Of a stretch of DNA of 64,000 nt, positions 633 through 63,578 are shown one piece after another. The notes under the pieces are model-generated. The model was given only the letters and a program-made list of their open reading frames with translations. It ran no database searches and was not told the origin of the DNA. Source of the stretch: Pedococcus badiiscoriae. GTDB taxonomy: Bacteria > Actinomycetota > Actinomycetes > Actinomycetales > Dermatophilaceae. The DNA lies in the NCBI RefSeq assembly GCF_013408925.1, contig NZ_JACCAB010000001.1, forward strand, positions 2,108,001-2,172,000. Direction: 5' to 3'. The number at the start of each line of letters is the position of its first letter. The stretch's first letter is position 1. The position numbers were made by a program, and so were the translations under genes.

Positions 633-2564
633 TCACATCCAGTCGACGTCGGCGGCGTCCTTGCCGCCGGCGAGGCGAGCGTAGCCCGGGCCGCGGTCGA
701 AGAACGGCTCCGCGTCGGGGCGGGCGTCGCGCAGCTGATCGCGCAGCGCGTCGCTCGCCGCGACATCGACGACCGGGGCGTCCTTGGTCCCCGAGGCGAC
801 CACCCCGTAGTCGGTGCGCGCGCCCTCCAACGACACCTTGCCCCAGCGCAGGTCGCGTTCGATGTCCTCGTAGGGACGCTCGAGCGGGTCGCCCCAGCCG
901 CCACCGCCGGTGGTGCGGATCCGGATCAGCTGGCCTGCCTTGACCGGTTCGGCGTCGGCCAGCGCGTCGACCTCCCGCTCGTCCGGGCCGCCGAGGTCGA
1001 TGGTGACGTTGAAGGAGCTGCCGGCCTTGCCGCCCTTGACACCCCAGCAGGCGAGGATCGAGCGGTCCGCGATGGACATGAAGTGCGCGTCCTTGAGCAT
1101 CCGGATCTGCTTCTCGTACCCCAGGCCGCCGCGGTAGCGCCCGGCGCCGCCGGAGTCGACGGCCAGCCCGAGCCGCTCGACGATGAAGGGGAACCGGCTC
1201 TCGGTGAACTCGGTGGGCAGGTTGCGTGAGTCCGGCACGACGTGGATGGTGTCCTCCCCGTCGGCGTAGTAGCGGCCACCCGAACCACCGCCGAGCACTT
1301 CGCGCATGAGGTAGTCGTTGCCGTCCCGGTCCTTGCCGTAGACACCGGTGTAGCGGATGGTCTCCTGGTCGGCGGGCATCTTGCCGTCGACGGCCTTGGC
1401 CACGACGCCGGCCAGCACGCCCAGGAGCCGCAGGATGACGAAGGTCCGGGCGTTCGTCGGGGCCGGGAAGATCGGCGTCAGCAGGGTGCCCTTGTCGGGG
1501 AAGCGCATCTCGATGAGCGGCACGATGCCCTCGTTGACGTCGAGCTCGGCCATCCGCTCAGGGGTGTCGGCGAGGTTGCGCAGGATCGGCGCGAGCCACT
1601 TCTTGAGGAAGTTGCCGCCGACGTAGTCACCGCAGTGGTTGATCGGACCCTTGGCCTGCGGGGCGGTGCCGGTGAAGTCGATGATGAGGCGCGGCCCGCC
1701 GTCTCCGGGACCGGGGCCTCCGGTGGACTCCTTGGTGAGGGTGATCCGCTGGGTGTGCAGCTGCGGCTCGTCCACGCCGTCGTGCTCGGCGTAGTCCTCC
1801 CACACGTAGGTGCCGTCGGGGATCTTGGACAGGATCTCGCGCCGGTAGGTCTCGGTGGTCTGGTCCAGGATGGTGTCGAAGGCCGCCTCGATGGTGTCCC
1901 GGCCGTAGCGCTCGAACAGCTCGGACAGGCGCCGGGCGCCCATCAGGCAGGCCGAGCACTCGGCGTCGAGGTCCGCGGCCAGCGAGTCGGGCATGCGGGA
2001 GTTGCGGGTCATGATCCGCAGCGCCGCCTTGTTGGGAACTCCCTTGTCCCACAGCTTGATCGGCGGGACGGCCAGGCCCTCCTCGTACACGCTGGAGGCG
2101 TCGCTGGGCATCGACCCGGGCACGGCGCCACCGATGTCGTCGTGGTGGCCGAACGCCTGCACGAAGGCCACGACCTCACCACCGCTGAACACGGGGACGG
2201 TCACACAGAGGTCGGGCAGGTGGCCGATGCCGCCCTCGGACTCGTAGACGTCGTTGTGGAAGAAGACGTCCCCCTCGCTCATCTCCGCCAGCGGGAAGTC
2301 GCGGACGATCGGGTGCACGAGCGCCGAGTAGGACCGGCCGGTGAGCTTGCGCAGCTGGCGGTCGTGGATGCCCGCCCGGAAGTCGTGGGCGTCCCGGATC
2401 ATGGGGGAGCGGCTGGTGCGCGCGATGGCCGTCTCGACCTCCATCTCGACGCTCGCCAGGGTCCCCTGGACGATCTCCACGAGGATCGGGTCGACCGTGG
2501 TGCCCAGCGGCGTGAGCCGGTTGCCGTGCTCGTATGCCGTGGGCAGGCCGGCGTTGTTGGCCAT
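633..2564 (-). CDS. hyuB: Hydantoinase B / oxoprolinase family protein (HyuB-like)
   Basis: This 643-residue protein is the B (catalytic-partner) subunit of the ATP-dependent hydantoinase/5-oxoprolinase/acetone carboxylase family. It typically works with HyuA to open a cyclic imide or lactam or to carboxylate a ketone in the cytoplasm. Family features include PILVEIVQGTLASVEMEVE near the N-terminus, SPMIRDAHDF, HNDVYESEGGIGHLPD, a QAFGHHDDIGG segment and a C-terminal glycine-rich TTGGGGWGDP motif near residue 560. The length matches typical HyuB subunits. The start ATG overlaps the hyuA stop in a TGATG junction, which indicates translational coupling. The substrate is not determined; the setting (Mo hydroxylase, nucleobase permease, PucR, oxamate carbamoyltransferase genes) favours an N-heterocycle over acetone. 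Confidence 0.92.
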   Translation of the reverse strand: MANNAGLPTAYEHGNRLTPLGTTVDPILVEIVQGTLASVEMEVETAIARTSRSPMIRDAHDFRAGIHDRQLRKLTGRSYSALVHPIVRDFPLAEMSEGDVFFHNDVYESEGGIGHLPDLCVTVPVFSGGEVVAFVQAFGHHDDIGGAVPGSMPSDASSVYEEGLAVPPIKLWDKGVPNKAALRIMTRNSRMPDSLAADLDAECSACLMGARRLSELFERYGRDTIEAAFDTILDQTTETYRREILSKIPDGTYVWEDYAEHDGVDEPQLHTQRITLTKESTGGPGPGDGGPRLIIDFTGTAPQAKGPINHCGDYVGGNFLKKWLAPILRNLADTPERMAELDVNEGIVPLIEMRFPDKGTLLTPIFPAPTNARTFVILRLLGVLAGVVAKAVDGKMPADQETIRYTGVYGKDRDGNDYLMREVLGGGSGGRYYADGEDTIHVVPDSRNLPTEFTESRFPFIVERLGLAVDSGGAGRYRGGLGYEKQIRMLKDAHFMSIADRSILACWGVKGGKAGSSFNVTIDLGGPDEREVDALADAEPVKAGQLIRIRTTGGGGWGDPLERPYEDIERDLRWGKVSLEGARTDYGVVASGTKDAPVVDVAASDALRDQLRDARPDAEPFFDRGPGYARLAGGKDAADVDWM

Positions 2565-4651
2565 CAGTGCTCCTTGGTGATGACGAGGTTGCCGATCGAG
2601 TCGACGCGGACGGTGAAGCCGGGGTGCACGGGGACGGTCGATCCGAACTCCTCCACGATCGCCGGCCCCGCGAAGGTGTCGCCCGCGCGCAGGTCAGGTC
2701 GCCACAGCACCGGGGTGTCGACGTAGCCCGCGTCCGCGTCGAAGCAGACCGGCCGGCTGCTCTTGAGGGCGCGGGTGGCAACGTCGTCCTGCTCCTCGGC
2801 TGCGGCAGCCAGGTCGCGCAGCTCCGGGCGGGTGATCGGACCGACGCCCGTCACGCGCAGGTTGACCCATTCGACCTGTTGGCTCGGGTCGTCGCGGAAG
2901 TCGTAGCCGTACAGCGCACGGTGCTCGGCGTGGAACGCCTCGGCGACGTCGGCGGCATACGCCTCGTCGACGGCACCCTCCGGCGCGGCGACCCTGACCT
3001 CGAACGCCTGGCCGAAGTAGCGCAGGTCGACGGTGCGCGAGTAGCGGTGCTCGTCGCGCGGGAAGCCTTCACCGTCAAGGGCTTTCGCGGCCTTGGCGGT
3101 GAGCTCGTCGAAGGTCCGCTGGACGGCGGCGTAGTCGAGCGAGGCGTGCTTGGAGACCATCGTCTGGACGTAGTCGTTCTTCACGTCGACGGTGAGCAGG
3201 CCGAAGGCGGAGACGTTGCCGGGATTCTGCGGGACGACGACCCCGGCGAGGTCGAGGATGTCGACGAGGCGGCAGCCCAGCAGCGAGCCGGACCCGCCGA
3301 AGGTCGTGAGCATGAAGTCGCGGACGTCCAGGCCGCGCTTGACCGAGACCTGACGCAGCGCGTTGGCCTGGTTCCACGCCGAGATCTCGAGGATGCCGGT
3401 GGCGCAGCGGACGGGGTCGATGCCGAGTTGTCCGGCGAGGGAGTCGATGCCCTCGCGCGCGGCCTGCACGTCGAGGGGGATCTCGCCGCCGAGCAGGTGC
3501 GGGGGGATCCGCCCGAGGACGACGTGCGCGTCGGTGATGGTCGGCGCGGTGCCGCCCTTGGCGTAGCAGAGCGGGCCCGGGTCGGCGCCGGCGGAGTGCG
3601 GCCCCACCTTGAGCGTTCCTTCGGGGGAGATCCACGCGATCGACCCGCCGCCGGCGCCCACGGTGACGACGTCGATCATCGGGATCTTGCTCGGGTAGGC
3701 CCCGACCGTGCCCTCGGTCGTCAGGGTCGGCTCGCCGTCGAGGACCACGCTGACGTCGGTCGAGGTGCCACCGCCGTCGCAGGTCAGCACCTTGGGGAAC
3801 CCGGCCCGTCTGGCGATCAGCCCCGCGCCGAGCGCGCCCGCCGCAGGACCCGACAGGACCGTCGTGATCGGCTGGTGCACGACCTCGTCGGCCGACAGCA
3901 CCCCCCCGTTGGACTTCATGATGTAGAAGGGGATCCCGCTCGCGAAGTCGTCCAGGCGGGTGTGGATGTTGGTGACGTAGCGGCTCACGTTGGGCTTGAC
4001 CGCCGCGTCGACGAGGGTGGTCATCGAGCGCTCGTACTCGCGGTACTCGCGCAGCACCTCGCTCGAGATCGACACGATCGCCTCGGGGTGCTCGCGGTGC
4101 AGGATCTCGCGCATGGCCAGCTCGTGGGTGTCATTGGCGTAGGAGTGCAGGAAGCAGACGCCAAGGGTGGTGATCCCCCGGTCGCGGAACCAGCGTGCGG
4201 CGGCCACGGCGGACTCCTCGTCGAACGGCCGGAGCTCGGTGCCCTGGAAGTCCATCCGGCCGCCCACCGTGCGCACGGCATCGGCCGGCACGATGCGCGG
4301 CGGCTTCACCCAGAAGTAGGAGTTGCCGTAGCCGTCCGGCACCGCCTGGCGGGCGATCTCGAGCATGAACTCGTAGCCCTCGCTGGTGATGAACCCGAGC
4401 CGCTCCACCTTGCCCTCGAGGAGCTTGTTGGTGGCGACCGTCGTGCCGTGGCAGACCGCGGTGATGTCGGCCCCGGCGGCGCCCATCAGGTCGAGCACCT
4501 TCGAGACGCCGTTGATGAAGCCGTCAGCCGGGTTGCTCGGCGTGGACGGCGTCTTGGTCGTCACCATCTCGCCGGAGTCCTCGTCGAACGCCACGACGTC
4601 CGTGAACGTGCCGCCGGTGTCGATGCCGATCCTGATCCGCCGCTGAGCCAT
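2564..4651 (-). CDS. hyuA: Hydantoinase A / oxoprolinase family protein (HyuA-like)
   Basis: This 695-residue protein is the ATP-binding partner of HyuB. The N-terminal actin-like nucleotide site is clear ([17 protein letters not shown], residues about 8-24), followed by [14 protein letters not shown], the [14 protein letters not shown] segment and [10 protein letters not shown] in the hydantoinase A domain, and a C-terminal oxoprolinase-type domain ending near GNLVITKEH. Length is normal for the family. It is the first gene of the hyuA-hyuB-CoA-transferase operon. A palindrome lies 36 bases upstream of its ATG (4687-4703). Family members act on hydantoins, 5-oxoproline, N-methylhydantoin or acetone; the name reflects family only. 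ATP-driven opening of a five-membered imide ring is the role most consistent with the neighbours. Confidence 0.92.
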
Positions 4652-4703: not shown

Positions 4704-4786
4704 CCACATCGGCGATGTATGCCGCGTGGTGCCCATCCGCCGTACGTCCCGGCGCAGGCCGTGGCCCGCGGTCGGGCAGGCGCGGG

Positions 4787-5242: not shown

Positions 5243-6139
5243 TCAGTGGGGGAAGGACGTCTGCGCGGGGCGCTCGAGGTCGTCGCGGTGGGCGCGGATC
5301 AGGTCGAGGTTGCGGTCGCGCAGGTGGTCGAAACCCTGGCCGATGTTCGAGCCGGGCGTGAGGGACGACAGGGCGGTCGCCGGGTCGAGCACGGCCGAGA
5401 CCCAGCCCTCGTGCGAGGCGGCCTTGGCGGCGATGTGCGCGGTGGGTGTCACGATGTGCGAGTTCCCGAAGTAGAGCACCCCGGCCGGGTCGGTCCCGGT
5501 GGCGTTGGCGCCGATGACGAAGACGTGGTTGTCGTAGGCGCGCGCCCGCGACGTCAGCTCCCAGATGTCGGCCGACCGGAGCAGCGCGCTGGGTCGGCAG
5601 ATGACCTCCGCGCCCTGCACCGCCTGGATCCGCGACAGCTCGGGGTAGTCGCCGTCGAAGCAGATGATCATGCCGATCCTGCCCAGGTCGGTGTCGCAGA
5701 CCGTCACCGTGTCGCCGGGCGTGACCCAACCGCCACCGTCAACGTGCTCGGTGCAGAACGGGTGCGTCTTGCGGTAGACCCCGATCACCTCGCCGGACCG
5801 GTCGATGAGCACCGAGGAGTTGTAGATGACGCCTCGCTCCGGCCCCCGCTCGTAGGTGCCCAGCACGGCATACACACCGAGGTCGCGGGCCACGGCCTGC
5901 ACGGGTTCGGTGACCGGCCCCGGGATGTCCGAGACGAGGTCCCAGAGCTCCTCGGTGGTGCAGTCGGGGGTGAACCCGGTGGTCGCCGACTCGGGGAGCA
6001 CGACGAGCTCGGCCCCGGTCGCGTCGACGCAGCGTCGCGTGAAGTCGACGCACTTGTCCAGGTTCTTGCGCACCGACTCCGGGGACAACGGCCCGGGCAC
6101 GGGTGCGAGCTGGATGGCAGCCGCCGTGAAAGCGCGCAT
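5243..6139 (-). CDS. Nitrilase-superfamily (carbon-nitrogen hydrolase) amidase
   Basis: A 298-residue cytoplasmic C-N hydrolase. The catalytic triad is readable: Glu50 (LVVLPESATTGF), Lys124 (GVYRKTHPF) and Cys160 (MIICFDGDYPE). Members cleave amides, N-carbamoyl compounds or nitriles with release of ammonia. I place the start at ATG 6139 because GGAGG lies six bases upstream; a longer reading frame continues upstream through coxG and is not real. The start overlaps the coxG stop (TGATG), making this the last gene of the coxM-coxS-coxL-coxG operon. That position suggests it acts on a product of the molybdenum hydroxylase. Oxamate amidohydrolase or N-carbamoyl amidase activity would fit the surrounding genes, but specificity cannot be read from sequence. 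Confidence 0.9.
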   Translation of the reverse strand: MRAFTAAAIQLAPVPGPLSPESVRKNLDKCVDFTRRCVDATGAELVVLPESATTGFTPDCTTEELWDLVSDIPGPVTEPVQAVARDLGVYAVLGTYERGPERGVIYNSSVLIDRSGEVIGVYRKTHPFCTEHVDGGGWVTPGDTVTVCDTDLGRIGMIICFDGDYPELSRIQAVQGAEVICRPSALLRSADIWELTSRARAYDNHVFVIGANATGTDPAGVLYFGNSHIVTPTAHIAAKAASHEGWVSAVLDPATALSSLTPGSNIGQGFDHLRDRNLDLIRAHRDDLERPAQTSFPH

Positions 6140-6756: not shown

Positions 6757-9185
6757 CGTGCCTCCTGCTGCGATGGGTTGTGCCGCGTGCGGGCCAGTGA
6801 GGGGATCTCGCCGCGGGCGTGCCGCTGGCGCAGCTCCCACAGCTCGACCGGGGAGATCGGCATCGAGGTGATCGGGAAGCCCTCGGCGTCCTCGATGGCC
6901 GAGGCGATGACCGCCGTGACGGGAATGCACCCGGCCTCGCCGGCGCCCTTGATCCCCAACGGGTTCAGGGGCGAGGGGGTCTCGAGGTGGTCAGTCTCGA
7001 CGAACGGGACCTCGGAGGCGTAGGGCATCAGGAAGTCCATGAACGAGGCGTTGAGCAGCTGCCCGGACTCGTCGTAGACCATCCGCTCGTAGAGGGCCCC
7101 GCCCACGCCCTGGGCGACGCCGCCGTGGACCTGGCCCTCGACGATCAGCGGGTTGATCATGGTGCCGCAGTCGTGGATGACGCAGTAGCGCAGGATCCGG
7201 ATCTCGGCGGTCACCGGGTCGGTCTCGACGATGGCCGCGTGCATGCCGTTCGCGAAGGTGGCCTGGGGCGGGGAGTAGAAGTCCCTGCCCTCCAGGCCGG
7301 GCTCGTCGTCGTCCGCCACGGGTGGCTTGCTGAGGTCGGTGTTCCCCGCGAACTGGGTGGCTGCCTTGGCCGCGTCGTCGAAGGCGTAGCGCAGCGGGTT
7401 GGACATCACCGAGATCGTGCCCAACGACATCCGGGTGCCCGGGGCGCCCTTGACCTGCACGATGCCGTCGACGATCTCGAGGTCCTCCGCCGAGACCTCC
7501 AGGGCGTCCGCCGCGATGCGCAGTGCCTTGGCCCGGACGGCACGCGCCGCCAGGGCGATCGCGTTGCCGCTCGTCACCGCGGCACGGGAGGCGAACGTCC
7601 CCACGGCATACGGCATGCGGCGGGTGTCGCCGGTCGTGACGAAGACATCGTCGAGGGGGACACCCAGCTCCTGGGCGACGATCTGGGCGAAGGCGGTCTC
7701 GTGCCCCTGGCCCTGCGACGTGAGGCCGGTGGACACGTTGACGCGCCCACTGGTCTCGATCTGGATGTGTCCACCCTCGTAGGGGCCGACCCCGGTGCCC
7801 TCGACGTAGCAGCCGATGCCCAGACCGACGCGCCTGCCCTCGGCCTCGGCCTGCGCGCGGTATGCCGCGAAGTCGTCCCAGCCGACGAGTGCCTTCAGCT
7901 TGGCCAGGGAGGCGGGGAAGTCGCCCGAGTCGTACTTCAGGGGTCGTCCGTCCTGGAAGAGCAGCCCGTGGTCGTAGGGCATCTCGCTCGGGAGGATGAA
8001 GTTGCGCGAACGCACCTCCGCCCGGTCGATCCCGAGACTGTCCGCGATGGCATCCATGGTGCGTTCCATGGCGAAGCAGCCCTGCGGGCGTCCCGCGCCC
8101 CGGTAGGGGGTCACGAGCACCGTGTTGGTGTAGAGCGACCAGAACTCGCAGCGGTAGGCGCCCGGCTTGTAGGGACCGAGCAGCTGGGTGCTGGTGATGA
8201 TCGGCACGATGATGCCGTACGGGGTGTAGGCGCCGTTGTCGTGCCAGAACTTGACGTCAAGGCCGAGGATGCGGCCCTCGTCGTCGAACCCGACCCGGAC
8301 CTGCTGCAGCTGGCCGCGCTCGTGGGCACTGGAGATGAAGTGCTCGCGTCGGTCCTCGGTCCACTTCACCTCCTGCTCGAGGAGCCTTGCGGCCCAAGGG
8401 ATCAGGACCTCCTCGGGCCACGGGTGGTTGATCTTGACCCCGAAGCCGCCGCCCACGTCGGGGGCGATGCACTCGACCTTCGCGAGCGGCAGGTCGAGCT
8501 TGGCGGCCACGGCGGCCCGCACGCCCGTCGAGGTCTGCGTGGAGGAGAAGATGCGCAGCTCGCCCTTGTCGGTGTCCCAGCGGGCCAGGACGCCCTTGCC
8601 CTCCATCGGCATGCAGGCGCTGCGCTCGATGTCGAGCTCCAGCTCGAGGACGTGGGGCGCGGCGTCGATGGCCGCATCGACGTCACCGACCTCCTGGAGC
8701 ATGCGGCAGGCGACGTTGCCGGGCACGTCCTCGTGGACCAGCGCCGACCCGTCGCGGGCGTTGGCGATCCCCACGACCGGGGTGAGCAGCTCGTAGTCGA
8801 CCCGGATCCGCTGGCACACGTCCTCGGCGATGTAGCGGTCGCGGGCGACCACCATGACGATCGCCTCCCCGACGTAGTTGACCTCGTCGCGAGCCAGGGC
8901 GAACTGCGTGCGCCCGTGGGTGAGGGTGGGGTGGGGGATGAGCAGCGGCAGCGGTTCGCCGACCTTGCCCGGCAGGTCCTCATGGGTCCAGATGCCGACC
9001 AGGCCGTCGATCTCGAACGCGTCACTGACGTCGATGTCGAGGATCCGGGCATGGGCGTGCGGGCTGCGCACGAACGCGGCGGCCAGGGCGCCGTGACCCA
9101 TGTCGTCGAGGTAGCGACCCCCGCCGGTGACCAGGCGCGGGTCCTCCTTGCGTGCCACCCGCGCTCCGAACAGCTGGGTCGTCAT
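6753..9185 (-). CDS. coxL: Molybdenum hydroxylase large (Mo-pterin) subunit, CoxL/XdhB-like, form II type
   Basis: This 810-residue molybdopterin subunit belongs to the xanthine dehydrogenase/CO dehydrogenase family and hydroxylates a substrate at the Mo centre. Readable features are GARVARKEDPRLVTGGGRYL at the N-terminus, the aldehyde-oxidase-type DVGGGFGVK, the active-site loop PYRGAGRPQG, the GVAQGVGGALYE segment and the catalytic glutamate in KGAGEAG (Glu750). True aerobic CO dehydrogenase (form I) carries AYxCSFR in the active-site loop. Here the loop is of the RGAGR type, so CO is unlikely to be the substrate and a purine, other N-heterocycle or aldehyde is more likely. The start ATG 9185 overlaps the coxS stop by four bases (ATGA), as does its stop with coxG. 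Confidence 0.92.
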   Translation of the reverse strand: MTTQLFGARVARKEDPRLVTGGGRYLDDMGHGALAAAFVRSPHAHARILDIDVSDAFEIDGLVGIWTHEDLPGKVGEPLPLLIPHPTLTHGRTQFALARDEVNYVGEAIVMVVARDRYIAEDVCQRIRVDYELLTPVVGIANARDGSALVHEDVPGNVACRMLQEVGDVDAAIDAAPHVLELELDIERSACMPMEGKGVLARWDTDKGELRIFSSTQTSTGVRAAVAAKLDLPLAKVECIAPDVGGGFGVKINHPWPEEVLIPWAARLLEQEVKWTEDRREHFISSAHERGQLQQVRVGFDDEGRILGLDVKFWHDNGAYTPYGIIVPIITSTQLLGPYKPGAYRCEFWSLYTNTVLVTPYRGAGRPQGCFAMERTMDAIADSLGIDRAEVRSRNFILPSEMPYDHGLLFQDGRPLKYDSGDFPASLAKLKALVGWDDFAAYRAQAEAEGRRVGLGIGCYVEGTGVGPYEGGHIQIETSGRVNVSTGLTSQGQGHETAFAQIVAQELGVPLDDVFVTTGDTRRMPYAVGTFASRAAVTSGNAIALAARAVRAKALRIAADALEVSAEDLEIVDGIVQVKGAPGTRMSLGTISVMSNPLRYAFDDAAKAATQFAGNTDLSKPPVADDDEPGLEGRDFYSPPQATFANGMHAAIVETDPVTAEIRILRYCVIHDCGTMINPLIVEGQVHGGVAQGVGGALYERMVYDESGQLLNASFMDFLMPYASEVPFVETDHLETPSPLNPLGIKGAGEAGCIPVTAVIASAIEDAEGFPITSMPISPVELWELRQRHARGEIPSLARTRHNPSQQEAR

Positions 9186-9691: not shown

Positions 9692-10590
9692 GCTGCTGGT
9701 CCTTCCGTGTCGTGCGGGACCGGCTGCGGCGCAACGGAGCTCGCGGCGGCCTCGGTCAGGGTGAGTCGGGCGAGCTCGGCGGCCAGCATGGCGCGGTACT
9801 CGGCAGTGGCGTGGATGTCGCCCTCGGGGTCGATGGAATCGCGGACCAGGTCGCCTGCGGCCGACCAGTCCACCGCGGCCGGCTCCAGGCCGGCGAAGAC
9901 GGAGGTGACGTCGAGGGTGCGGGGCACGTCGGTGACCGACACGAACGACAGGCGGGCGTCCGCGACGACGCCGTCGGTCGTGCGGACCGCAGCGGCCACG
10001 CCGGCCATGGCGTAGTCGCCGTGCCGCCGGGCGCGCTCCATGAAGGCCGTGCCGGTGCCCGCCGCGAACCGTCGGAACCGCACCGCGACGGCCAGCTCCT
10101 CTGGGGCCAGGGACGTCTCGAGCGCTCCGAGGAAGAAGTCGGCGACGGCGATCTCGCGGGAGCCGGAGGCGGAGACGGCCTCGACCACCCCGTCGGTCAG
10201 GGCGAGCATCGCGGGCATCTCGCCGGCCGCGTCGGCGTGGGCGATCGAGCCGACGGTCGTGCCCCGGTTGCGGATGACCGGGTGGGCCACGCAGACCAGC
10301 GCCTGGCGCAGCAGCGGCAACGCGGCATACGCCTGCGCGTGGTGCTCCAGCTGCGCGTGGCGCACCAGCGCGCCCACCCGCACCTCGGTGTCGCTCACGA
10401 CCACGTCGGCGAGACCGGAGACCTGGTTGATGTCGACCAGGTGGGCAGGTGAGGCGAGGCGCATGTTGAGGATCGGGATGAGGCTCTGGCCGCCCGCGAG
10501 GACCTTGCCGTCGTGTCCCACCTCGGCCAGCACCGCAACCGCCTCCGCGACGGTGCGAGGGGCGTGGTGGACGAACGGCGCGGGCTTCAC
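9688..10590 (-). CDS. coxM: Molybdenum hydroxylase medium (FAD-binding) subunit
   Basis: A 300-residue flavoprotein subunit of the Mo hydroxylase that accepts electrons from the iron-sulfur subunit. The FAD-binding motifs are present: AGGQSLIP at residues 32-39 and TVGSIAHAD at residues 112-120, plus the CO dehydrogenase flavoprotein C-terminal domain. It is the first gene of the five-gene operon coxM-coxS-coxL-coxG-amidase, with every junction overlapping by one to four bases. The start is GTG 10590. CAGGAT lies six bases upstream and could be a -10 box or part of an AGGA ribosome site. The 96 bases between it and the hairpin at 10687-10715 should hold its promoter; no clear operator stands out. 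Confidence 0.93.
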   Translation of the reverse strand: MKPAPFVHHAPRTVAEAVAVLAEVGHDGKVLAGGQSLIPILNMRLASPAHLVDINQVSGLADVVVSDTEVRVGALVRHAQLEHHAQAYAALPLLRQALVCVAHPVIRNRGTTVGSIAHADAAGEMPAMLALTDGVVEAVSASGSREIAVADFFLGALETSLAPEELAVAVRFRRFAAGTGTAFMERARRHGDYAMAGVAAAVRTTDGVVADARLSFVSVTDVPRTLDVTSVFAGLEPAAVDWSAAGDLVRDSIDPEGDIHATAEYRAMLAAELARLTLTEAAASSVAPQPVPHDTEGPAA

Positions 10591-14284: not shown

Positions 14285-15232
14285 GTGACAGCGTCCGAGC
14301 CGCTCTGGCCGGCAGCGGTGTCCGAACGTGCTGCCACGCTGGTCCACGGACCCGCCCGCTCGGCGAAGGTCCTCGGCACCTTTCCGACGGCGCTCTACCT
14401 CCAGGTCGGCGGCCACGCGCGGGTCCTCCCGGTCGTGACCCCCGACGGCCTGCGCCTGCCGACAGCCCTGGCCGTCGCGACCTCGTTGCCCAGGGTCGGG
14501 TGGGGCGTCCAGCCGGGCGACGACGTCGTGGTGGGTGGTGGTGACGTGCTGCTGCCGGGCGTGACGATCCGCGCCGTCCGCACCTGGCACCCGCGCCGGG
14601 TGCCGACCGCCTCCGTCGCGACGTTCCTCGGTGCGCCGCTTGCCCCCCTGGCTCTGCCCTGGCGAGCCGCCTCGCGCGTGCTCACGCAAGGACTGACCGG
14701 CGACGAGCGCTCCCTGCCGTCCCGGGTGCAGGAGCTGGTGGGGCGGGGACCTGGTCTCACCCCGAGCGGCGACGACGTCCTGTGCGGGGTGATGCTCGCC
14801 CTGCGCCTGCACCCTCGGGGATCCGACGTGCTGCTGGGCCGCCTCTGGCGGGCGGTGCGTCCGCTGCTCGCGACGACCACGAGCCTGTCCGCGGCCCTGC
14901 TCACCGAGGCTGCGCGGGGGTATGCCGTGGCGCCGGTCGTGCGCCTCACCGAGGCTCTGGCGGGCGCCGACCGCGCAGCCCCGACGGGCTCGGCACGCCT
15001 GACGGGGGAGACCGGCCCCGCGGGCTCCACGCTCCCCGACGAGGTCGCCGCAGCCATCCGCGAGGTGCTCGCCATCGGTCACTCCTCGGGTGCCGACCTG
15101 CTGGGCGGCCTCGCCGGCTGCCTCGACGCGCTCGACGCCCTCGACGAGGCTGACTCGGCTGACCTCCTCGGCGCCCCCGACCTGCTCGTCCACTCCGGCC
15201 GCCCGGCCATGACCCCCAGGAGCCTTCAGTGA
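14285..15232 (+). CDS. allH: DUF2877 protein, probable oxamate carbamoyltransferase subunit (AllH-like)
   Basis: A 315-residue DUF2877 protein. The family motif GRGPGLTPSGDDVLCG is at residues 153-168 and GHSSGADLLGG at 265-275. The E. coli homologue YlbF (AllH) is one of three subunits, with FdrA and YlbE, of the carbamoyltransferase that converts oxalurate and phosphate to oxamate and carbamoyl phosphate. Start GTG 14285 has GGAGG six bases upstream. It is first in a tightly coupled three-gene operon. The gene symbol is transferred from that family knowledge, and the actual substrate here is not proven. Confidence 0.82.
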   Translation: MTASEPLWPAAVSERAATLVHGPARSAKVLGTFPTALYLQVGGHARVLPVVTPDGLRLPTALAVATSLPRVGWGVQPGDDVVVGGGDVLLPGVTIRAVRTWHPRRVPTASVATFLGAPLAPLALPWRAASRVLTQGLTGDERSLPSRVQELVGRGPGLTPSGDDVLCGVMLALRLHPRGSDVLLGRLWRAVRPLLATTTSLSAALLTEAARGYAVAPVVRLTEALAGADRAAPTGSARLTGETGPAGSTLPDEVAAAIREVLAIGHSSGADLLGGLAGCLDALDALDEADSADLLGAPDLLVHSGRPAMTPRSLQ

Positions 15233-24879: not shown

Positions 24880-25671
24880 TCAGCTGGTGGGCCTGAGGTC
24901 CTCCGGGTCGACCACCCCGGTGATGTCCTCGTCGCGACGGTCGATGCCGGTCACCAGGTGGTACGTCGCGCCTGCGATCGCGGCGCCGACGAGGGGGGCC
25001 ACCCAGAACGCCCACAGCTGGGCCGGTGCGCCGTTGCCGTTGAAGAAGGCGACCGCGGTGGAGCGCGCGGGGTTGACCGAGGTGTTGCTGATCGGGATCG
25101 AGATCAGGTGGATGAGCGTGAGGGCCAGCCCGATGGCGATGGGGGCGAAACCCGTCGGCGCGCGATCGTCCGTGGCTCCCAGGATGACGTAGAGGAAGAA
25201 GGCGGTCAGGATGGCCTCGGCGCACAGCACCGCGACCAGGGTGTAGCCGCCGGGGGAGTGCTCGCCGTAGCCGTTGGCGGCGAGGTGACCCGTGGCGTCG
25301 AACCCGGGGACGCCACGGGCGATGCCCCACAGGGCCAGTCCGGCCAGGAGTCCGCCCCCGACCTGCGAGCCGACGTAGGCCGGCACGTCCGTCCACGGGA
25401 AGCGCCGCGCCACTGCGACGCCGATCGTCACCGCGGGGTTGAAGTGCGCCCCGGACACGTGCCCCACGGCATACGCCATCGTGAGGACGGAGAGCCCGAA
25501 GGCGAGCGCCACGCCCAGGAAGCCGATCCCGACCTGGACCCCCTGACCGGCGACGACGCTGGGGGCGAGGTACTTCGCCGAAAAGATGCCGCTGCCGCAG
25601 CCGGCGAAGACGAGCCAGAACGTGCCCAGTGCCTCCGCGCCGAGGCGTGAGCTGAGTGCCGGTGTGCGCAT
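24880..25671 (-). CDS. aqpZ: Aquaporin Z-type water channel
   Basis: A 263-residue integral membrane channel with six helices and the two aquaporin half-helix boxes HFNPAVT and SVNPARS. The surrounding residues ([15 protein letters not shown]) resemble bacterial AqpZ more than glycerol facilitators. Start ATG 25671 ([19 protein letters not shown]) has AGGGGAG upstream and gives the normal N-terminus; a longer frame upstream is not needed. A perfect 9-base hairpin lies 44 bases before the start (25715-25738). Rapid water flux and osmotic adjustment are the expected role. Confidence 0.92.
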
Positions 25672-37358: not shown

Positions 37359-37473
37359 CGCGGTTTGGGGTGCCGTCCTCGGCCCTCCTGCTGTGCTCGC
37401 ACCAGAGCGTATGCCGCGTGGTTGAGCCGATCCCGCGACCTGTCCGTCCAATGAACAGGGTGGGCCGTAGGTC

Positions 37474-50620: not shown

Positions 50621-50653
50621 GGGTTACCCGCCGGTATGCCGAGGGCGCCAGCC

Positions 50654-51796
50654 CTACCCGGCGAGGGACCGGGCCTGCTGGGCGGACGAGTAGTGGGTCA
50701 GCAGCTGGTCCGTCAGGGACGCCCAGCTCCGCGGAGCGACCCGCAGCCGTCCGGCCTCTCCCATCGCCTCCCGCTTGACCCGGTCGCCGGCCAGGTGGGC
50801 CACCGCCTCACGCAGGGACTCCGGTCGGTCCGGGTCGAAGAGCAGGCCGGTCCGCGAGTGGTCCACCAGGTCGAGGGGGCCGCCGCGCGCGGGGGCGATG
50901 ACAGGCAGCGCCGTCGCCGCGGCCTCCTGCAGGGTCTGCCCGAAGGTCTCCCGGGTGCCGGTGTGCACGAAGAGGTCGAACGCGGCATACGCGCGGGCGA
51001 GGTCGTCCCCCTCGCGCCGGCCGAGGAACACGGCGTCGACACCGGCTGCAGCCAGGGCCGCGGCGTCCTCGTCGCGGGTCGGACCCTCGCCGACGACGAC
51101 CACCCGCAGGCCCGGCAGGCCGGCGAGCGATGCCAGCCGGGTCAGCTCCTTCTCGGGAGCGAGCCGTCCGACATAGCCCACGAGCACCTCCCCCTTCGGC
51201 GCGAGGGACCGGCGCAGCGCGCGGGTGCCGGCGTCGGCGCGCCAGCCGGGGTGAAACAGGGCCGCGTCCACGCCCCGGGCCCACAACGCCGTGCGGGGTA
51301 TGCCGTGCGCGCGCAGCTCGGCGAGGGTCGCCGACGAGGGGGCGAGGGTCAGGTCGGCCATCTCGTGCATCCTGCGGATCCATCGCCAGGCCGCCCGCGC
51401 GGCGCCGCGTCCCACCGCGCCGGGGCCGTGCTGTCGGACGTAGCTGGGCATGTCCGTCTGGTAGACGGCCACCGTCGCCAGCCCGAGCCGTGCAGCGGCG
51501 GACAGGGCGCTGGCGCCGAGCACGAAGGGTGAGGCCACGTGCACGACGTCCGGGGCGAAGTCGGCCAGGGCGGCCTCGACCTCGCCGCCCATCGGCAGCC
51601 CGACCGGGAACTGCCGCACAGGCACGGACGCGAGGCCGTGGACGGCATACCCGGCGTAGTGGGACGGGGCGGGGCGTGGGGCGAGGATGAGCGCCTCGTG
51701 GCCACGGTCCCGCAGGCACTCGGCGACCCGGCAGACGCTGGTCGTGACCCCGTTGAGGTAGGGCAGGAACGACTCGGTGACGATGGCGACGCGCAC
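50654..51796 (-). CDS. GT4 glycosyltransferase, mannosyltransferase-like
   Basis: A 380-residue GT-B glycosyltransferase of family 4. The N-terminal half begins MRVAIVTESFLPYLNGVTTS, a hallmark of GDP-mannose-dependent alpha-mannosyltransferases of the PimB/MgtA group. The C-terminal donor domain has GYVGRLAPEKELTR and the EX7E-type segment HTGTRETFGQTLQEAAATAL. It is divergent from a GDP-mannose pyrophosphorylase gene, which supports GDP-mannose as donor. Start GTG 51796. The acceptor, perhaps a phosphatidylinositol or other lipid, is unknown. Confidence 0.88.
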   Translation of the reverse strand: MRVAIVTESFLPYLNGVTTSVCRVAECLRDRGHEALILAPRPAPSHYAGYAVHGLASVPVRQFPVGLPMGGEVEAALADFAPDVVHVASPFVLGASALSAAARLGLATVAVYQTDMPSYVRQHGPGAVGRGAARAAWRWIRRMHEMADLTLAPSSATLAELRAHGIPRTALWARGVDAALFHPGWRADAGTRALRRSLAPKGEVLVGYVGRLAPEKELTRLASLAGLPGLRVVVVGEGPTRDEDAAALAAAGVDAVFLGRREGDDLARAYAAFDLFVHTGTRETFGQTLQEAAATALPVIAPARGGPLDLVDHSRTGLLFDPDRPESLREAVAHLAGDRVKREAMGEAGRLRVAPRSWASLTDQLLTHYSSAQQARSLAG

Positions 51797-51895: not shown

Positions 51896-53005
51896 ATGTC
51901 ATCCGCGGCGAGCAACGACGTTGCACCCACGAACGACCACTTCTGGGCGGTGATCCCCGCCGGGGGTGCCGGCACGAGGCTGTGGCCGGTGTCCCGCGCG
52001 GGGTCGCCCAAGTTCCTGCACGACCTCACCGGTTCGGGCCGCTCCCTGCTGCAGGCCACCTGGGACCGGCTCACGCCGCTGACCGGCGCGCGAGTGCTGG
52101 TCGTCACCGGTGTCGCCCACCGGGCGGCGGTGGGGGAGCAGCTGCCCGACCTGCCGCCGGACCAGCTGTTGGCCGAACCGGCGCCACGGGACTCCATGGC
52201 CGCGATCGGGTGGGCGGCGGCAGTCCTCGAGGCGCGCGATCCCGATGCGGTGCTGGGGTCCTTCGCAGCGGACCACGTGATCACGGACGAGGACGCGTTC
52301 CGCGCCTGTGTCGCCGAAGCGGTGCGGGTCGCGGAGCAGGGCTTCGTCGTCACGATCGGCATCGAACCCACCCATCCCGCAACGGGATTCGGCTACATCG
52401 AGATGGGTTCACCCCTTGGGGACGGCCCGACCACCGCGGTCAGCCAGTTCGTCGAGAAGCCGGATCGGGCCCGAGCGCAGGACTACCTGTCGACCGGGCG
52501 GTTCCGGTGGAACGCCGGCATGTTCGTCGTGAAGGCCACGGTCCTGCTGGACCTGCTGGCCCAGTGGCACCCCGAGCTCGCGGCGGGAGTCCGCGCGCTC
52601 GCGGCCGACCCGGGTCGGCTCGAGGAGGTGTGGCCCGGGCTGGAGAAGATCGCGATCGACCACGCCGTCGCCGAGCCTGCGGCCGGCCAGGGGAGGGTCG
52701 CCATGGTGCCGGGCGGTTTCGGCTGGGACGACGTCGGCGACTTCAGCTCCCTGGGCGGGTTGCTCTCCGACGCCTCCGGTATGCCGGGGGTCCGAGTCCT
52801 CGGCGACGCCTCAGCCGTGCGGGTGGTCGACTCGACCGGCATCGTGGTGCCCGGAACGGGGCGCGTCGTGGCGCTCGTCGGCCTCGACGACGTCGTCGTG
52901 GTCGACACCCCCGACGCCCTGCTGGTGATGTCCCGCGAGCGGGCCCAGGACGTCAAGGCCGTCGTCGACGCCCTGCGGTCCGAGGGGCGCGCCGACCTCC
53001 TCTGA
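51896..53005 (+). CDS. manC: Mannose-1-phosphate guanylyltransferase (GDP-mannose pyrophosphorylase)
   Basis: A 369-residue nucleotidyltransferase that makes GDP-mannose from GTP and mannose 1-phosphate. The N-terminal signature IPAGGAGTRLWPVSR is at residues 20-34, the SPKF motif follows, then FVEKPD and GFGWDDVGDFSSL. It lacks the C-terminal isomerase domain of bifunctional enzymes. The start ATG 51896 gives the standard N-terminus and has the leaderless -10; the longer upstream frame runs through the opposing GT4 gene. GDP-mannose would feed the adjacent GT4. Confidence 0.93.
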   Translation: MSSAASNDVAPTNDHFWAVIPAGGAGTRLWPVSRAGSPKFLHDLTGSGRSLLQATWDRLTPLTGARVLVVTGVAHRAAVGEQLPDLPPDQLLAEPAPRDSMAAIGWAAAVLEARDPDAVLGSFAADHVITDEDAFRACVAEAVRVAEQGFVVTIGIEPTHPATGFGYIEMGSPLGDGPTTAVSQFVEKPDRARAQDYLSTGRFRWNAGMFVVKATVLLDLLAQWHPELAAGVRALAADPGRLEEVWPGLEKIAIDHAVAEPAAGQGRVAMVPGGFGWDDVGDFSSLGGLLSDASGMPGVRVLGDASAVRVVDSTGIVVPGTGRVVALVGLDDVVVVDTPDALLVMSRERAQDVKAVVDALRSEGRADLL

Positions 53006-53049: not shown

Positions 53050-54639
53050 TCAGCTGACCAGGTCGCGGCGGCGGAACTGGGTGAAGCCGAGGCCTGCGAC
53101 CACCACGGCCGCGACGACCAGCGCGACGAGGCCGCCCGCGTTGGCGTTGCCACCGGGCAGGCTGCCGAGGTGGTCGAACGGCGAGAGGGCCAGCGCCCAC
53201 GCCGGGAGCGACAGGAGGGCGCCGAACTCACCGAGGAGCACGAACGCCGCCAGCAGACCCCAGGCCAGGGTCGAGCGCCGCGGGAGCAGCCCGAACAGCA
53301 GGACCGCCAGGGCCACGCAGACGAGCACGGCGGGGGCCGTCGCGAGGGCGGCCGGCAGCAGCTGGCCCACCCCGGTGCTGCTCACCGCACCCGCGGACAG
53401 CCCGGCCGCTGTGCCCACCACGGCCAGGAGCCACAGCGAGCCCAGCACGGCGATCGTCGCGTGGCTGCCCAGCCAGGTCCACCGGCTCACCGGCGCGGCC
53501 AGCACGACCTCCGCGCGTCCGGCGCTCTCCTCGGACCGCAGCCGCAGGGTCGTCGCGATGCCGTAGGCGGCCACGCCGATCGCGAGGAACCGCAGCTCGG
53601 TACCGAAGAACGCATCCACGAGGGAGCCCTTTCCACCGCTCATCGTGCGCAGCATCTCCTCGACGCTCGGGCTGCTCGCGATCTGGTCCACGGACCTGGC
53701 GATGTTGCCCACGGCCAGGCCGAGTACGGCATACCCGATGGTCCATCCGAGCAGCGCACCGCGCTGCAGGCGCCAGGCGAGGCCGAGCGGGCTGGCCAGG
53801 GCGGCGGAGGCCCTCGTCGGACCTGGGCGGGGGGCCCACAGGCCCGAGCCGAGGTCGCGACGGTGCAGCAACACGTCGGCGACGAACAGCAGCGCGGCGG
53901 TGGCCAGGACTGCGGGCAGGAGCAGCCACAGCCGATCGGCACCGAACGGGCTGACCTTCTCGGCCCAGCCGAGGAACGACAGCCAGGCGAGGTGCTGGCC
54001 GCCGGCTTTCGTGGTGTCGGCCAGGGCCCGGACGACGAAGGCCAGGCCCAGTGCCCCCACCGCGATGCCCCCCGCCCCGCGGGTGGTCGAGGTCAGCTGG
54101 ACGGCGACGGCGGTGACGCCGGTCATGACGAGTCCGGCCACGACCTCCACCGCCCCGAGCGCGAAGGAGCCGGTCACGCCCACGCCCGTGGCCACCAGGC
54201 TCAGCGCGGAGAGCAGCCCGGTGGCGAGGACCGTCGCCGTCGCCAGCCCTACGGCGGCCGCGAGCGGGGCGCGGCGCCCCACGACGCCGGCTGCGACGAG
54301 CTCGAACCGGCCGTCCTCCTCCTCGCTGCGGGTGTGCCGGCGCACGATGGCGAAGGCGAGGAACGCGGTGAACAGGCTGCCCATCATCACGGTCTTGAGC
54401 ACCCCGATCCCGGCGGCCGTCGCCGACGGCAGCGGCCCGTACAGTGCGGTGAGCGACGGGTTGTCGACCATCACCGCGGCGCCCGAGGCGGCCTCGGCGT
54501 CGGTCGGGTAGAGGTCGAGGGTGGCGACCATCGACCCGTAGGCCGTGGCCACCAGGGCGAGGACGCTGGCCACGATGACCCAGCGGTCGCGGCGCCAGGC
54601 CAGGCGCAGGAGCGGTCCGGTGCCGACGAGCGACGTCAC
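53050..54639 (-). CDS. ABC exporter permease, large ABC-2-like
   Basis: A 529-residue membrane protein with about twelve hydrophobic helices in two similar halves, the layout of actinobacterial exporters for antibiotics or lipids. I read GTG 54639 as the start (MTSLVGTGPLL), with AAGGAGG about ten bases upstream; the frame upstream is a shadow of the ATPase gene. It follows the ATPase gene by 28 bases on the same strand. The exported compound is unknown; the divergent GbsR/MarR gene is the likely regulator. Confidence 0.86.
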   Translation of the reverse strand: MTSLVGTGPLLRLAWRRDRWVIVASVLALVATAYGSMVATLDLYPTDAEAASGAAVMVDNPSLTALYGPLPSATAAGIGVLKTVMMGSLFTAFLAFAIVRRHTRSEEEDGRFELVAAGVVGRRAPLAAAVGLATATVLATGLLSALSLVATGVGVTGSFALGAVEVVAGLVMTGVTAVAVQLTSTTRGAGGIAVGALGLAFVVRALADTTKAGGQHLAWLSFLGWAEKVSPFGADRLWLLLPAVLATAALLFVADVLLHRRDLGSGLWAPRPGPTRASAALASPLGLAWRLQRGALLGWTIGYAVLGLAVGNIARSVDQIASSPSVEEMLRTMSGGKGSLVDAFFGTELRFLAIGVAAYGIATTLRLRSEESAGRAEVVLAAPVSRWTWLGSHATIAVLGSLWLLAVVGTAAGLSAGAVSSTGVGQLLPAALATAPAVLVCVALAVLLFGLLPRRSTLAWGLLAAFVLLGEFGALLSLPAWALALSPFDHLGSLPGGNANAGGLVALVVAAVVVAGLGFTQFRRRDLVS

Positions 54640-56166: not shown

Positions 56167-56214
56167 CACGGTGAGGTGGGCCACGGGTGGTGACCACACG
56201 GCATACGGGCTCAC

Positions 56215-56227: not shown

Positions 56228-57823
<1,596 letters not shown>

Positions 57824-57893: not shown

Positions 57894-59117
57894 ATGAGCG
57901 ACAACCAGCTGCTGGCCGACCTGTGCACCACCATCGACTTCCTCACCCCCGAGCTCCTGGCCCTGCAGCACGACCTGCACACACACCCAGAGCTCTCCCG
58001 TGGCGAGACGCGCACGACCGCCAAGGTCGCGGAGCGCCTGGAGGCCGCCGGGGTCTCTCTGCGCCGCCTGCCCGTCAGCGGGCTGATCGCCGACCTCGGA
58101 GCCGAGCAGCCGGCATACCGGGTGGCGTTGCGCGCCGACCTGGACGCCCTGCCCGTGGGGGAGCGCACGGACCTGCCGTGGGCGTCGACCACCGAGGGCA
58201 TCTGCCACGCCTGCGGGCACGACGTCCACGTGGCGGGCATGGTGGGCGCCGGCCTCGCCCTCAAGGCCCATGAGGACGCGCTGCGGGAGCGCGGCATCGC
58301 GGTCCGCCTGCTCTTCCAGCCCGCCGAGGAGGTGATCCCCGGCGGCGCGGTCGACCTGCTGGCCGAGAGCGCCCTGGACGACGTCCACGCCATCTTCGCG
58401 GTCCACTGCGACCCCAGCCTGGACGTCGGCACCGTGGGCCTGCGCGACGGGGCGATCACCGCGGCAGCCGACCGCGTGACGGTGCACCTCTCCGGCCGCG
58501 GAGGCCACACCTCGCGACCCCATCTCACCGAGGACCTCACCTTCGCGATGGCCAAGGTGGTCACCGAGCTGCCGGCCGTTCTGTCCCGCCGGCTCGACCC
58601 GCGCACGGCGTTCGCGCTGGTCTGGGGCGAGGTGCACGCCGGTCAGGCCGCCAACGTGATCCCGTCGAGCGGCACCCTCGCGGGCACGCTGCGCATGCTC
58701 GACGCCAAGGCCTGGACGACGATCGGACCGCTCCTCGCGCAGGCCGTCGAACACATCGTGGCCCCGTACGGCGTGACGGCAGTGCTCGAGCACGTCCAGG
58801 GAGTGCCTCCGGTGGTCAACGCCACGGAGGCGGTCGAGGTGTTCCGGGCGGCGGCAGAGGGAGTCGGCCTGACGGCCCTGGGGACCGTGCAGTCCCTCGG
58901 CGGGGAGGACTTCGCGTGGTACCTGCGCGAGGTCCCGGGCGCCATGGCCCGGCTGGGGACGCGGACACCCGGCGGCCACACGTACGACCTTCACCAGGGT
59001 GACCTCGTGGTCGACGACGACTCGGTCGTGCACGGCGCACGCCTGCTCGCAGGTGCGGTGGTGTCCGGCGTGGTCAAGACCCGAGCCAGCGCCGATGGGT
59101 CCAGCGGGCTCGGCTAG
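57894..59117 (+). CDS. M20-family amidohydrolase
   Basis: A 407-residue M20D-type metal amidohydrolase (N-acyl amino acid or carbamoyl-type substrates). Readable metal-site segments are HACGHDVHVAG, PAEEVIPGG, the HCDPSLDVG region and LGGEDFAWYL; the dimerisation domain lies in between. ATG 57894 is preferred over a GTG four codons upstream because TAGAGT (57878-57883), a likely -10, would overlap it. It is read just after the mutase gene, but from its own promoter. The stop overlaps that of the convergent secreted-protein gene. Confidence 0.9.
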   Translation: MSDNQLLADLCTTIDFLTPELLALQHDLHTHPELSRGETRTTAKVAERLEAAGVSLRRLPVSGLIADLGAEQPAYRVALRADLDALPVGERTDLPWASTTEGICHACGHDVHVAGMVGAGLALKAHEDALRERGIAVRLLFQPAEEVIPGGAVDLLAESALDDVHAIFAVHCDPSLDVGTVGLRDGAITAAADRVTVHLSGRGGHTSRPHLTEDLTFAMAKVVTELPAVLSRRLDPRTAFALVWGEVHAGQAANVIPSSGTLAGTLRMLDAKAWTTIGPLLAQAVEHIVAPYGVTAVLEHVQGVPPVVNATEAVEVFRAAAEGVGLTALGTVQSLGGEDFAWYLREVPGAMARLGTRTPGGHTYDLHQGDLVVDDDSVVHGARLLAGAVVSGVVKTRASADGSSGLG

Positions 59118-62463: not shown

Positions 62464-63578
62464 AGCCGCTCAACGTGCGCCGGATCCTGATGAGCATGGC
62501 CGCACCGGTCCTTGCCCTCGTCGTCGCGTTCGTCGTCACCTCGCTGGTGCTCGCGGCGGTCGGGGACCCGGTGTGGGACGTCTGGAAGACCATCCTCGCC
62601 GTGCCCAAGCCGCGCCAGATGGTCAACGTGGTCAACGCCGCCTCGGTCTTCTACCTCTCCGCGATCGCCGTCGCGGTGGGGTTCCGGATGAACCTGTTCA
62701 ACATCGGGGTCGACGGCCAGTACCGCGTGGCCGTCTTCGCCGCAGCCGTCTTCGCAGGCCAGGCGTGGCTGCCCGGCTGGCTGAACATCCTCGCGTCGAT
62801 CGCCATCGCGATGGTGGCCGGTGGGCTGTGGGCCAGCATCGCGGCATACCTGAAGGTGAAACGCGGTGTGTCCGAGGTGATCTCCACCATCATGCTCAAC
62901 GCCATCGCCACCGGCGTGGTGAGCTGGCTGCTGGTGACGGTGTCCGATCGGCACGCCGGCTCCAACAGCATCGAGACCAAGACCATCCCGGACTCCTCCC
63001 AGCTCCAGGGCTTCACGCTGATCCCGGGAGCGACCAACCGCGTCTACACGCTGATCGTGCTGTCGCTGCTCGTCGGGTTCCTCTACTGGTTCGTCCTCGG
63101 CAAGACGCGGTTCGGCTTCGACCTCCGCGCCACCGGTCGGTCCGAGAGCGCGGCCGTCGCCAGCGGCGTGAAGGTGCCGCGGATGGTGACGACCGCGATG
63201 ATCGCCTCGGGTGCGCTCGCGGGCCTGGTCGGGATGCCGCTGCTGTTCGGGCAGGACCACAACTACGGCACGACCTTCCAGGCGGGGCTTGGCTTCGCCG
63301 GCATTGCCATCGCCCTGCTGGGCCGGAACAACGCGGTCGGGATCGCCTTCGCCTCGATCCTGTGGGCGTTCCTGGACGTGCAGTCCAACGCCCTGCAGAT
63401 CCAGGCGAACGTCGCCCAGGAGCTCGTCAACATCATCCAGGGCGTGATCCTGTTCGCCGTGGTCATCGCCTACGAGCTGATCCGGCGGGCCGACAAGCGC
63501 CTCGAGCAGGCCCGGGTCGCCCGTGAGCTCGCCGCCCAGCGACAAGCCGCCTCGGTCACGGAAGGAGCCCCCGCATGA
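62460..63578 (+). CDS. Nucleoside ABC transporter permease 1
   Basis: A 372-residue permease with about nine hydrophobic helices, BPD_transp_2 type. NIGVDGQYRVAVFAAAVFAG and the ATGRSESAAVASGVKV loop (the ATPase contact) are recognisable. Start GTG 62460 overlaps the ATPase stop (GTGA), with GGAGG upstream. A charged cytoplasmic tail of about 30 residues ends the protein. Confidence 0.93.
   Translation: MKPLNVRRILMSMAAPVLALVVAFVVTSLVLAAVGDPVWDVWKTILAVPKPRQMVNVVNAASVFYLSAIAVAVGFRMNLFNIGVDGQYRVAVFAAAVFAGQAWLPGWLNILASIAIAMVAGGLWASIAAYLKVKRGVSEVISTIMLNAIATGVVSWLLVTVSDRHAGSNSIETKTIPDSSQLQGFTLIPGATNRVYTLIVLSLLVGFLYWFVLGKTRFGFDLRATGRSESAAVASGVKVPRMVTTAMIASGALAGLVGMPLLFGQDHNYGTTFQAGLGFAGIAIALLGRNNAVGIAFASILWAFLDVQSNALQIQANVAQELVNIIQGVILFAVVIAYELIRRADKRLEQARVARELAAQRQAASVTEGAPA

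Follow-up and report, generated by a model that had tools for sequence, protein, structure and literature searches.

An over-represented octamer with polar spacing in Pedococcus badiiscoriae and its family: a possible self-recognition word for natural transformation

What might one exact octamer, GTATGCCG, be doing dozens of times in a 64,000-nucleotide stretch of the 3.39-Mb genome of Pedococcus badiiscoriae? The stretch (positions 2,108,001–2,172,000 of the single 3,386,878-base contig; called the window below, at its full length) holds 36 copies, 17 on the plus and 19 on the minus strand. This is the count given by the original prediction, which had been made from the letters of the window; the positions that it cites are right as well, and each of the 36 GTATGCC heptamers present is indeed followed by G. 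The word is short and exact and lies far above the expectation from composition and codon use. Despite its balance between strands it is polar in behaviour, and its enrichment is a trait of the family Dermatophilaceae (also labelled Intrasporangiaceae).

Over the whole genome 1,934 copies were counted (963 plus, 971 minus), against 60 (28 and 32) for the reversed word, which served as the control. In 100 dinucleotide shuffles of the window the mean was 0.80 and the largest value 4. The judgement that the octamer is far too common was thus borne out. Further statistics were obtained from an own-genome sample consisting of the window and 20 evenly spaced pieces (464 kb), some of them from 520 kb, with genes called by our own simple codon-score gene caller. 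The 464 kb contained 270 copies, about thirty-fold more than the 8.1 expected from an order-2 Markov model (trinucleotides), with similar numbers on the two strands of the sampled pieces. Among one-base neighbours, GGATGCCG exceeded its background about twofold (99 versus 47), and smaller excesses were seen for CTATGCCG (14 versus 5), GTAGGCCG (42 versus 24) and GTATGACG (11 versus 5). A weak YG extension follows the word on its 3′ side. One of the evenly spaced pieces (L017, G000:C1:2380001–2400000) held three copies in 20 kb, compared with 8–17 in the other 19; this single stretch is of low GC content, carries a phage-type integrase and is probably a mobile island. The phage TJE1, a single case with tiny counts, has two copies at 0.94 expected.

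Codon usage does not account for the excess, as the original prediction had argued. In 30 genome-wide synonymous codon shuffles of the sampled DNA, 10.3 ± 2.9 coding copies remained (largest value 16), compared with 205 observed, and GTATGCCG was the top octamer of this test. Within the context G-TAY-GCC-G, tyrosine is encoded by TAT in 113 of 133 cases (85%); where one outer G is missing the share is 29–30% (11/38 and 8/27), and in the other five contexts it is 2.6–9.3%. Codon-pair bias was ruled out on these grounds, the count after shuffling being so low and the TAT preference being confined to the context of the word. Neither outcome that the original prediction had named as refuting it was observed. 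The statement that copies occur in all three frames needs qualification, since several frames do occur and their use is uneven. Of the window's copies 32 are genic: the Tyr-Ala reading (..G TAT GCC G..) accounts for 17 and the Ala-Tyr reading (.CG GCA TAC) for nine, and six lie in other frames; over the 464 kb, 113 of 127 sense copies are in the Tyr-Ala frame and 60 of 78 antisense copies in the Ala-Tyr frame. Given this preference, frame use mirrors what the protein tolerates. Between genes the word is about 3.5 times denser, at approximately 1.8 per kb (gaps under 600 bp, 28.7 kb in all, with 52 copies) versus approximately 0.5 per kb within genes (205 in about 398 kb). Longer gaps, in which the caller may have overlooked genes, contain nine more.

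The arrangement of the copies revealed a rule of orientation. In the own genome, 21 pairs less than 1 kb apart were in the same orientation and 106 in opposite orientation, with 81.9 expected for either class (77.2 and 86.6, respectively, when conditioned on strand counts). When orientations were permuted within pieces and positions kept, same-orientation pairs averaged 59.8 and the lowest of 2,000 permutations gave 43; with pairs closer than 60 bp excluded, 20 were observed and the lowest permutation gave 36. Neighbouring copies alternate in orientation in 198 of 276 cases, and in the window alone in 27 of 35 (fraction 0.001). The rule was seen in 21 of 24 pieces and applies within one gene (7 same versus 42 opposite) as well as across different genes (9 versus 53). 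A polarity imposed by gene strand or reading frame was ruled out because the rule holds within and between genes and under label permutation. For 52 control octamers the same-orientation ratio was never below 0.90. Since copies in the same orientation avoid one another over distances of up to about 1 kb and opposite ones do not, the word behaves as a directional signal, its polarity being seen in the spacing. This overturns the earlier argument that the lack of strand bias speaks against a polar motif in general.

The same statistic was applied to other genomes, the relatives being represented by 23 pieces from word-bearing genomes, chosen by us and not containing comEC; another pool of relatives used for the pair statistic omits L058–L110, which duplicate named loci, and pieces with less than 0.35 copies per kb. 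Same-orientation pairs numbered 152 versus 201 expected in genome G132, 58 versus 100 in G058 and 48 versus 83 in the other relatives, and opposite-orientation pairs 214 versus 201, 104 versus 100 and 107 versus 83. In the own genome the repulsion results in even spacing, with a Fano factor of 0.57 in 5-kb bins, and none of 78 control 8-mers was as low. Ten pairs closer than 60 bp were found in 520 kb. Only five of these are inverted (+/−), at least four of which form long stems, for example L008 6988/7009, L009 1523/1544 and L011 1498/1519. Hairpin-forming inverted pairs are described for uptake sequences in the portions of PMC2397512 and PMC7811141 that were available.

By ComEC comparison, the nearest named genomes belong to Pedococcus, Phycicoccus and Knoellia of the same family. 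Eleven genomes drawn from the own genus contain 625–3,986 copies, a 6-fold range, and 159 genomes of the family 7 to 4,724. Sharp contrasts exist inside some of the other genera, for example with 1,062 copies in G035, 3,681 in G126 and 19 in G100. In 22 genomes from other families of the order the word did not exceed 3.6 times its control. A draw of 296 genomes from the phylum included three of the family, and none of the other 293 was comparably enriched: the maximum was 386 copies (G229, 7.5 Mb, control 176), the best ratio with more than 100 copies was 161 to 30 (G451), and ratios above this were confined to genomes with very few copies (G390, 15 to 2; G419, 8 to 1).

Individual sites are conserved as well. 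The measurements come from the surroundings of comEC and compare species within a group, pairwise and not independently. At 70–80% flank identity, exact sites were retained at a rate of 0.59 in the Pedococcus group (169 comparisons) and 0.77 in Knoellia (96 comparisons), compared with 0.15 for other octamers in both; Terrabacter and Humibacillus agree with this elevated conservation. No conservation was seen in six Pedococcus comparisons at 40–50% flank identity (none exact). Conservation of copies between related genomes, a check that the original prediction had proposed, is therefore found, Intrasporangium excepted (see below).

Some members of the family spell the word differently. We picked a panel of 60 genomes from the 159 according to their GTATGCCG counts (31 strong, 8 weak, 21 low, the last group including G058 with its dialect and G068 and G069 with a second word). 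Top octamers were surveyed in samples of 20-kb scale (14–40 kb for the variants, 16–116 kb for each low-count genome). A one-base variant headed the list in four of five weak-count genomes (GGATGCCG in G132 and G026, GTACGCCG in G079, GTATGCGG in G030) and in one of 20 low-count genomes (GGATGCCG in G058). In strong-count genomes a variant stood beside or before GTATGCCG in G013 and G059 (GTATGACG) and in G022 (GAATGCCG), and a shifted form, GGTATGCC, was found in G078. The codon-shuffle test, from which G012 and G024 were left out, again ranked GTACGCCG first in G079 and GAATGCCG first in G022; GTATGACG in G059 was outside its top six, and GTATGCCG was not the top octamer in four strong-word genomes (G025, G028, G066, G081). 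Named loci, of which 3 of 80 were dropped as shorter than 7 kb, point in small counts to GTATGNCG-like use in Flexivirga and Arsenicicoccus, to GTATGCGG in a Nostocoides and to both GTATGCCG and GGATGCCG in an Ornithinibacter bin. Counted genome-wide, GGATGCCG occurs 4,480 times in G132 (control 262), 3,949 times in G058 (289) and 3,816 times in G026 (392), versus about 1.3 to 5 times control in genomes without this dialect; G075 has both words, with 1,217 copies of GTATGCCG and 2,195 of GGATGCCG. Lineage-specific dialects thus exist, with genome-wide support for GGATGCCG and support from samples for the other variants. Two candidates were discarded in this survey: the GTCGAACTG excess in G033 is a 24-base tandem repeat (27 units seen, L042 5011–5635) and not a dispersed word, and excesses of the CCCCCCCC and GAGGACGA type look like low complexity or codon effects. 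Low-count genomes other than G058 and Janibacter gave no convincing word of their own in the samples, at low power.

The Janibacter-type genomes (G068, G069 and those sharing their genus label) use another word altogether. Their loci show no excess of GTATGCCG, and within genes CGAAGGGRG exceeds its codon-shuffled expectation. It occurs 1,452–2,601 times in all eight Janibacter-type genomes, with controls of 14–40, whereas its count stayed within 3.3 times the control in each of 39 other members of the family. In G068 it is strand-balanced, occupies two reading phases on either strand, lies outside called genes in 25 of 75 copies and reaches 50 genic copies versus 6.8 after codon shuffling. 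Copies pair into long hairpins there, and same-orientation pairs number 13 versus 21.3 expected, a weaker rule than that of GTATGCCG. Janibacter-type loci with this word are L089, L217 and L255–L259 (G068), further L139, L142, L149, L151, L156, L161, L164, L189 and L193; L164, the sole Marihabitans locus, is likewise rich in it.

Taken together, these properties resemble those of the uptake sequences by which Neisseriaceae and Pasteurellaceae recognise their own DNA. By this analogy, GTATGCCG has in our estimate about an even chance of being a self-recognition sequence for natural transformation. Incoming DNA would be scanned for the octamer by a component, in the membrane or at the cell surface, of a route formed by a Tad/Flp pilus and ComEA/ComEC, and the reading would be limited to one strand or would follow a fixed direction of processing. 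DNA carrying the word would preferentially be taken up or recombined, and repeated biased replacement of homologous stretches might then fix and protect the word wherever the protein code or intergenic space permits. A second copy in the same orientation within about 1 kb would add little and would not be retained. As the recognising protein drifted, the word could drift with it, giving rise to one-base dialects and, in Janibacter-type genomes, to the other word.

The genes for such a route are present. In the own genome comEA and comEC adjoin leuS, degV and plsY (neighbours named by eye), dprA is present, and a Tad/Flp locus comprises tadZ, tadA, tadB, tadC, a DUF4244 pilin, a weak TadE match and a Tad-like protein. 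A second Flp/Tad locus (L219 5671–15659) encodes two small pilin-like frames and a CpaF-type ATPase; downstream of it lies a phosphoribosyltransferase gene, perhaps comFC. Across the panel ComEC was matched in 59 of 60 genomes, the one without a match being G065 (760 contigs), and DprA in all 31 genomes examined; tadZ/A/B/C and flp were found in all 19 loci examined, which had been chosen by a T2SSE match. In G004 (G004:C1:1517076–1517881) the ComEC match falls into two separate parts, although the word is abundant there; in G080 (G080:C1) the match is partial. G016, poor in GTATGCCG, gave one weak T2SSE match (E 1.8e-4), and the Tad/Flp pilus is perhaps absent there. A TadF-like protein is present in some word-bearing and in some word-poor genomes. 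In Micrococcus luteus, which has comEA/comEC homologues, Flp pili are required for transformation according to the available part of PMC6370729. Because the same machinery is found in word-poor genomes, these genes show that uptake is possible and not that the word serves uptake.

Several results weigh against a role in transformation. Word-bearing and word-poor genomes could not be told apart by ComEC, DprA or the Tad locus, and ComP-type (N_methyl) pilins were found in 2 of the 60 panel genomes, the own genome not among them. ComEA sequences compared by eye displayed no evident difference, and the receptor search as a whole, covering ComEC, DprA, Tad, N_methyl pilins and ComEA, did not yield a recognising protein. 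In the own genome there is hardly any enrichment of singly mismatched forms, the pooled one-base variants being near background (398 versus 347.5 in 520 kb); in Haemophilus and Neisseria such forms are reported to be enriched, and uptake of the Haemophilus type is reported to be independent of orientation, which makes the orientation rule unexpected (both from the available part of PMC1939737). Even spacing is not general, the Fano factor being 0.53 in G058 but 1.25 in G132, 1.42 in the pooled relatives and 1.23 for CGAAGGGRG in G068, and the 20-kb bins of the own genome alone are indistinguishable from Poisson (P 0.097). Six Intrasporangium comparisons showed no conservation of sites (two exact). 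Finally, a literature search found no work on uptake or transformation in Dermatophilaceae or Intrasporangiaceae; nor did it find an earlier report of the word, in a search that covered only part of the texts containing GTATGCCG.

Comparison with the known systems gives a mixed picture. With the DNA uptake sequences (DUS) of Neisseriaceae the octamer shares the short exact word in thousands of copies, the inverted hairpin pairs, the lineage variants and the presence of two variants in one genome, as described in the accessible parts of PMC3630211 and PMC2397512. Its hosts, in contrast, belong to another phylum and have a Tad/Flp pilus, with N_methyl pilins confined to the two genomes mentioned; its same-orientation copies repel each other, which the accessible parts of these sources do not report for DUS, and some relatives use an unrelated word. 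The uptake signal sequences (USS) of Pasteurellaceae are, in the source portions available, orientation-independent with enriched mismatched forms, whereas the spacing of GTATGCCG depends on orientation. The likeness to DNA uptake sequences that the original prediction proposed is therefore upheld by strand balance, exactness, dialects, hairpin pairs, even spacing in the own genome and competence genes, and is left without the receptor. We conclude, again by analogy, that GTATGCCG most likely works like an uptake sequence, and we do not class it as one because the enrichment of mismatched forms and the ComP-type receptor both failed to appear.

The main competing explanation is a Chi-like signal, with the AdnAB helicase-nuclease or another end-resecting enzyme reading the octamer in one orientation as it unwinds DNA ends and switching to recombination; since resection proceeds from either side of a break, both orientations would be required. 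Repulsion limited to copies of like orientation is expected of a polar signal. PDDEXK_1 matches in frames of about 890 or more residues, putatively AdnA or AdnB by their size, are present in at least 52 of 55 panel genomes including the own, and whether AdnAB has a Chi-like signal is an open question in the available part of PMC4824097. Among the matches listed, however, AdnAB-size frames occur equally in word-poor and other-word genomes (G016, G067 and G081 having only shorter PDDEXK frames among them), the strands are about equally used with no co-orientation with replication in the sampled pieces, and sharp contrasts and re-spelling within one genus would be odd for a repair signal. We regard this explanation as unlikely. 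Chi read by RecBCD was ruled out: the own genome has no RecC match, and RecC does not track the word, occurring in 7 of 31 strong-count, 4 of 8 weak-count and 12 of 21 low-count genomes (23 of 60), so that RecBCD does not set it. Chi of RecBCD/AddAB shares with GTATGCCG the octamer scale, polar behaviour and over-representation. In 400 kb of Escherichia coli K-12, however, Chi was 2.9-fold enriched and locally skewed, compared with about thirty-fold and no strand skew here, and in this small sample it showed no same-orientation repulsion (11 versus 13.3 expected). Independently of the word, RecC is patchy in the family and several genomes seem to have RecBCD plus AdnAB-size enzymes. In many genomes a PDDEXK frame of the RecB family (about 300 residues) also lies some 8–27 kb from the AdnAB-size gene (G000:C1:716413–728290 and equivalents); by eye and among the matches listed, most genomes with RecC lack this frame, whereas G002 carries the two together.

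Regular sites on each strand might instead be required by another chromosomal protein, for nucleoid organisation, segregation, methylation or as a self-mark in defence. Even spacing in the own genome and G058, the strong conservation of sites and the strand balance would all suit such a binding or methylation site. Dialects, an unrelated second word and near absence in close relatives would then demand a dispensable and fast-changing binder, a non-directional binder does not explain the orientation rule, and restriction or methylation sites are typically not over-represented, so that this account, too, appears improbable. Turnover of word and dialect within the family is hard to square with either a repair or a nucleoid function. 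Other dispersed short words enriched genome-wide are the FtsK-orienting and SpoIIIE-recognition sequences (KOPS/SRS) and the highly iterated palindrome HIP1. KOPS are strand-skewed by replichore and HIP1 is palindromic; GTATGCCG is neither. No strand skew of the KOPS/SRS type was found in the window, the genome totals or the sampled pieces, and in this narrower sense the earlier argument from strand balance against KOPS still stands. A mere by-product of biased mutation or repair (such as very-short-patch-like repair or HIP1-like drift) or of codon-pair preference would agree with the location of most genic copies in the two least costly frames. It is contradicted by the codon shuffles, by the higher density between genes and by the non-palindromic sequence, and neither orientation-specific repulsion nor conservation between species is a mutational signature; we consider it very improbable.

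The distribution of the copies over the window is as follows. In the Tyr-Ala frame (TAT GCC) are, on the plus strand, 14920..14927, 16044..16051, 21076..21083, 28510..28517, 41029..41036 and 56407..56414 and, on the minus strand, 2953..2960 (gene 2564–4651), 5866..5873, 7604..7611, 10323..10330, 25467..25474, 30451..30458, 33031..33038, 48351..48358, 50983..50990, 51643..51650 and 53727..53734. Antisense copies read as GCA TAC are 2532..2539 (in a hydantoinase-B-type gene, 633–2564), 7860..7867, 35954..35961 and 46401..46408 on the plus strand and 17986..17993, 21258..21265, 42720..42727, 58111..58118 and 62842..62849 on the minus strand. The remaining genic copies are read as GGT ATG CCG (17641..17648 and 52779..52786, both plus) or, antisense, as GGC ATA CGG (16305..16312 and 45685..45692, both minus), GGC ATA (51298..51305, plus) and CGG CAT ACC (31182..31189, plus). 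Four copies, 4717..4724, 37409..37416 and 50634..50641 on the plus and 56199..56206 on the minus strand, lie outside called genes; the original prediction likewise counted four intergenic copies. Positions 633–18200 form a purine/hydantoin catabolism cluster with hydantoinase A/B, molybdopterin and FAD subunits of the xanthine-dehydrogenase type, a permease, a PucR-type regulator and an AllG-type protein.

Two Gram-negative families are known to have uptake sequences, and it has long been argued whether these reflect selfish drive or mate recognition. It is conceivable, though we put it somewhat short of an even chance, that the present family of soil and sludge bacteria evolved a full language of self-DNA recognition independently of Neisseriaceae and Pasteurellaceae, with a Tad/Flp pilus and directional or one-strand reading. 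This language would comprise GTATGCCG, the unrelated CGAAGGGRG, perhaps further words, and several dialects, and the spelling would close its genera to, or open them to, each other's DNA. If GTATGCCG is indeed a self-recognition word, it would be a third, independent case of an uptake sequence, whose dialects, whose losses and whose replacement by a different word, all inside one family, would provide natural replicates, and the orientation rule would tell something new about how such a word is read. Should it serve AdnAB instead, it would settle whether this class of enzymes has a Chi signal. The word may also be of practical use in transforming bacteria of this group, of which many come from activated sludge and soil.

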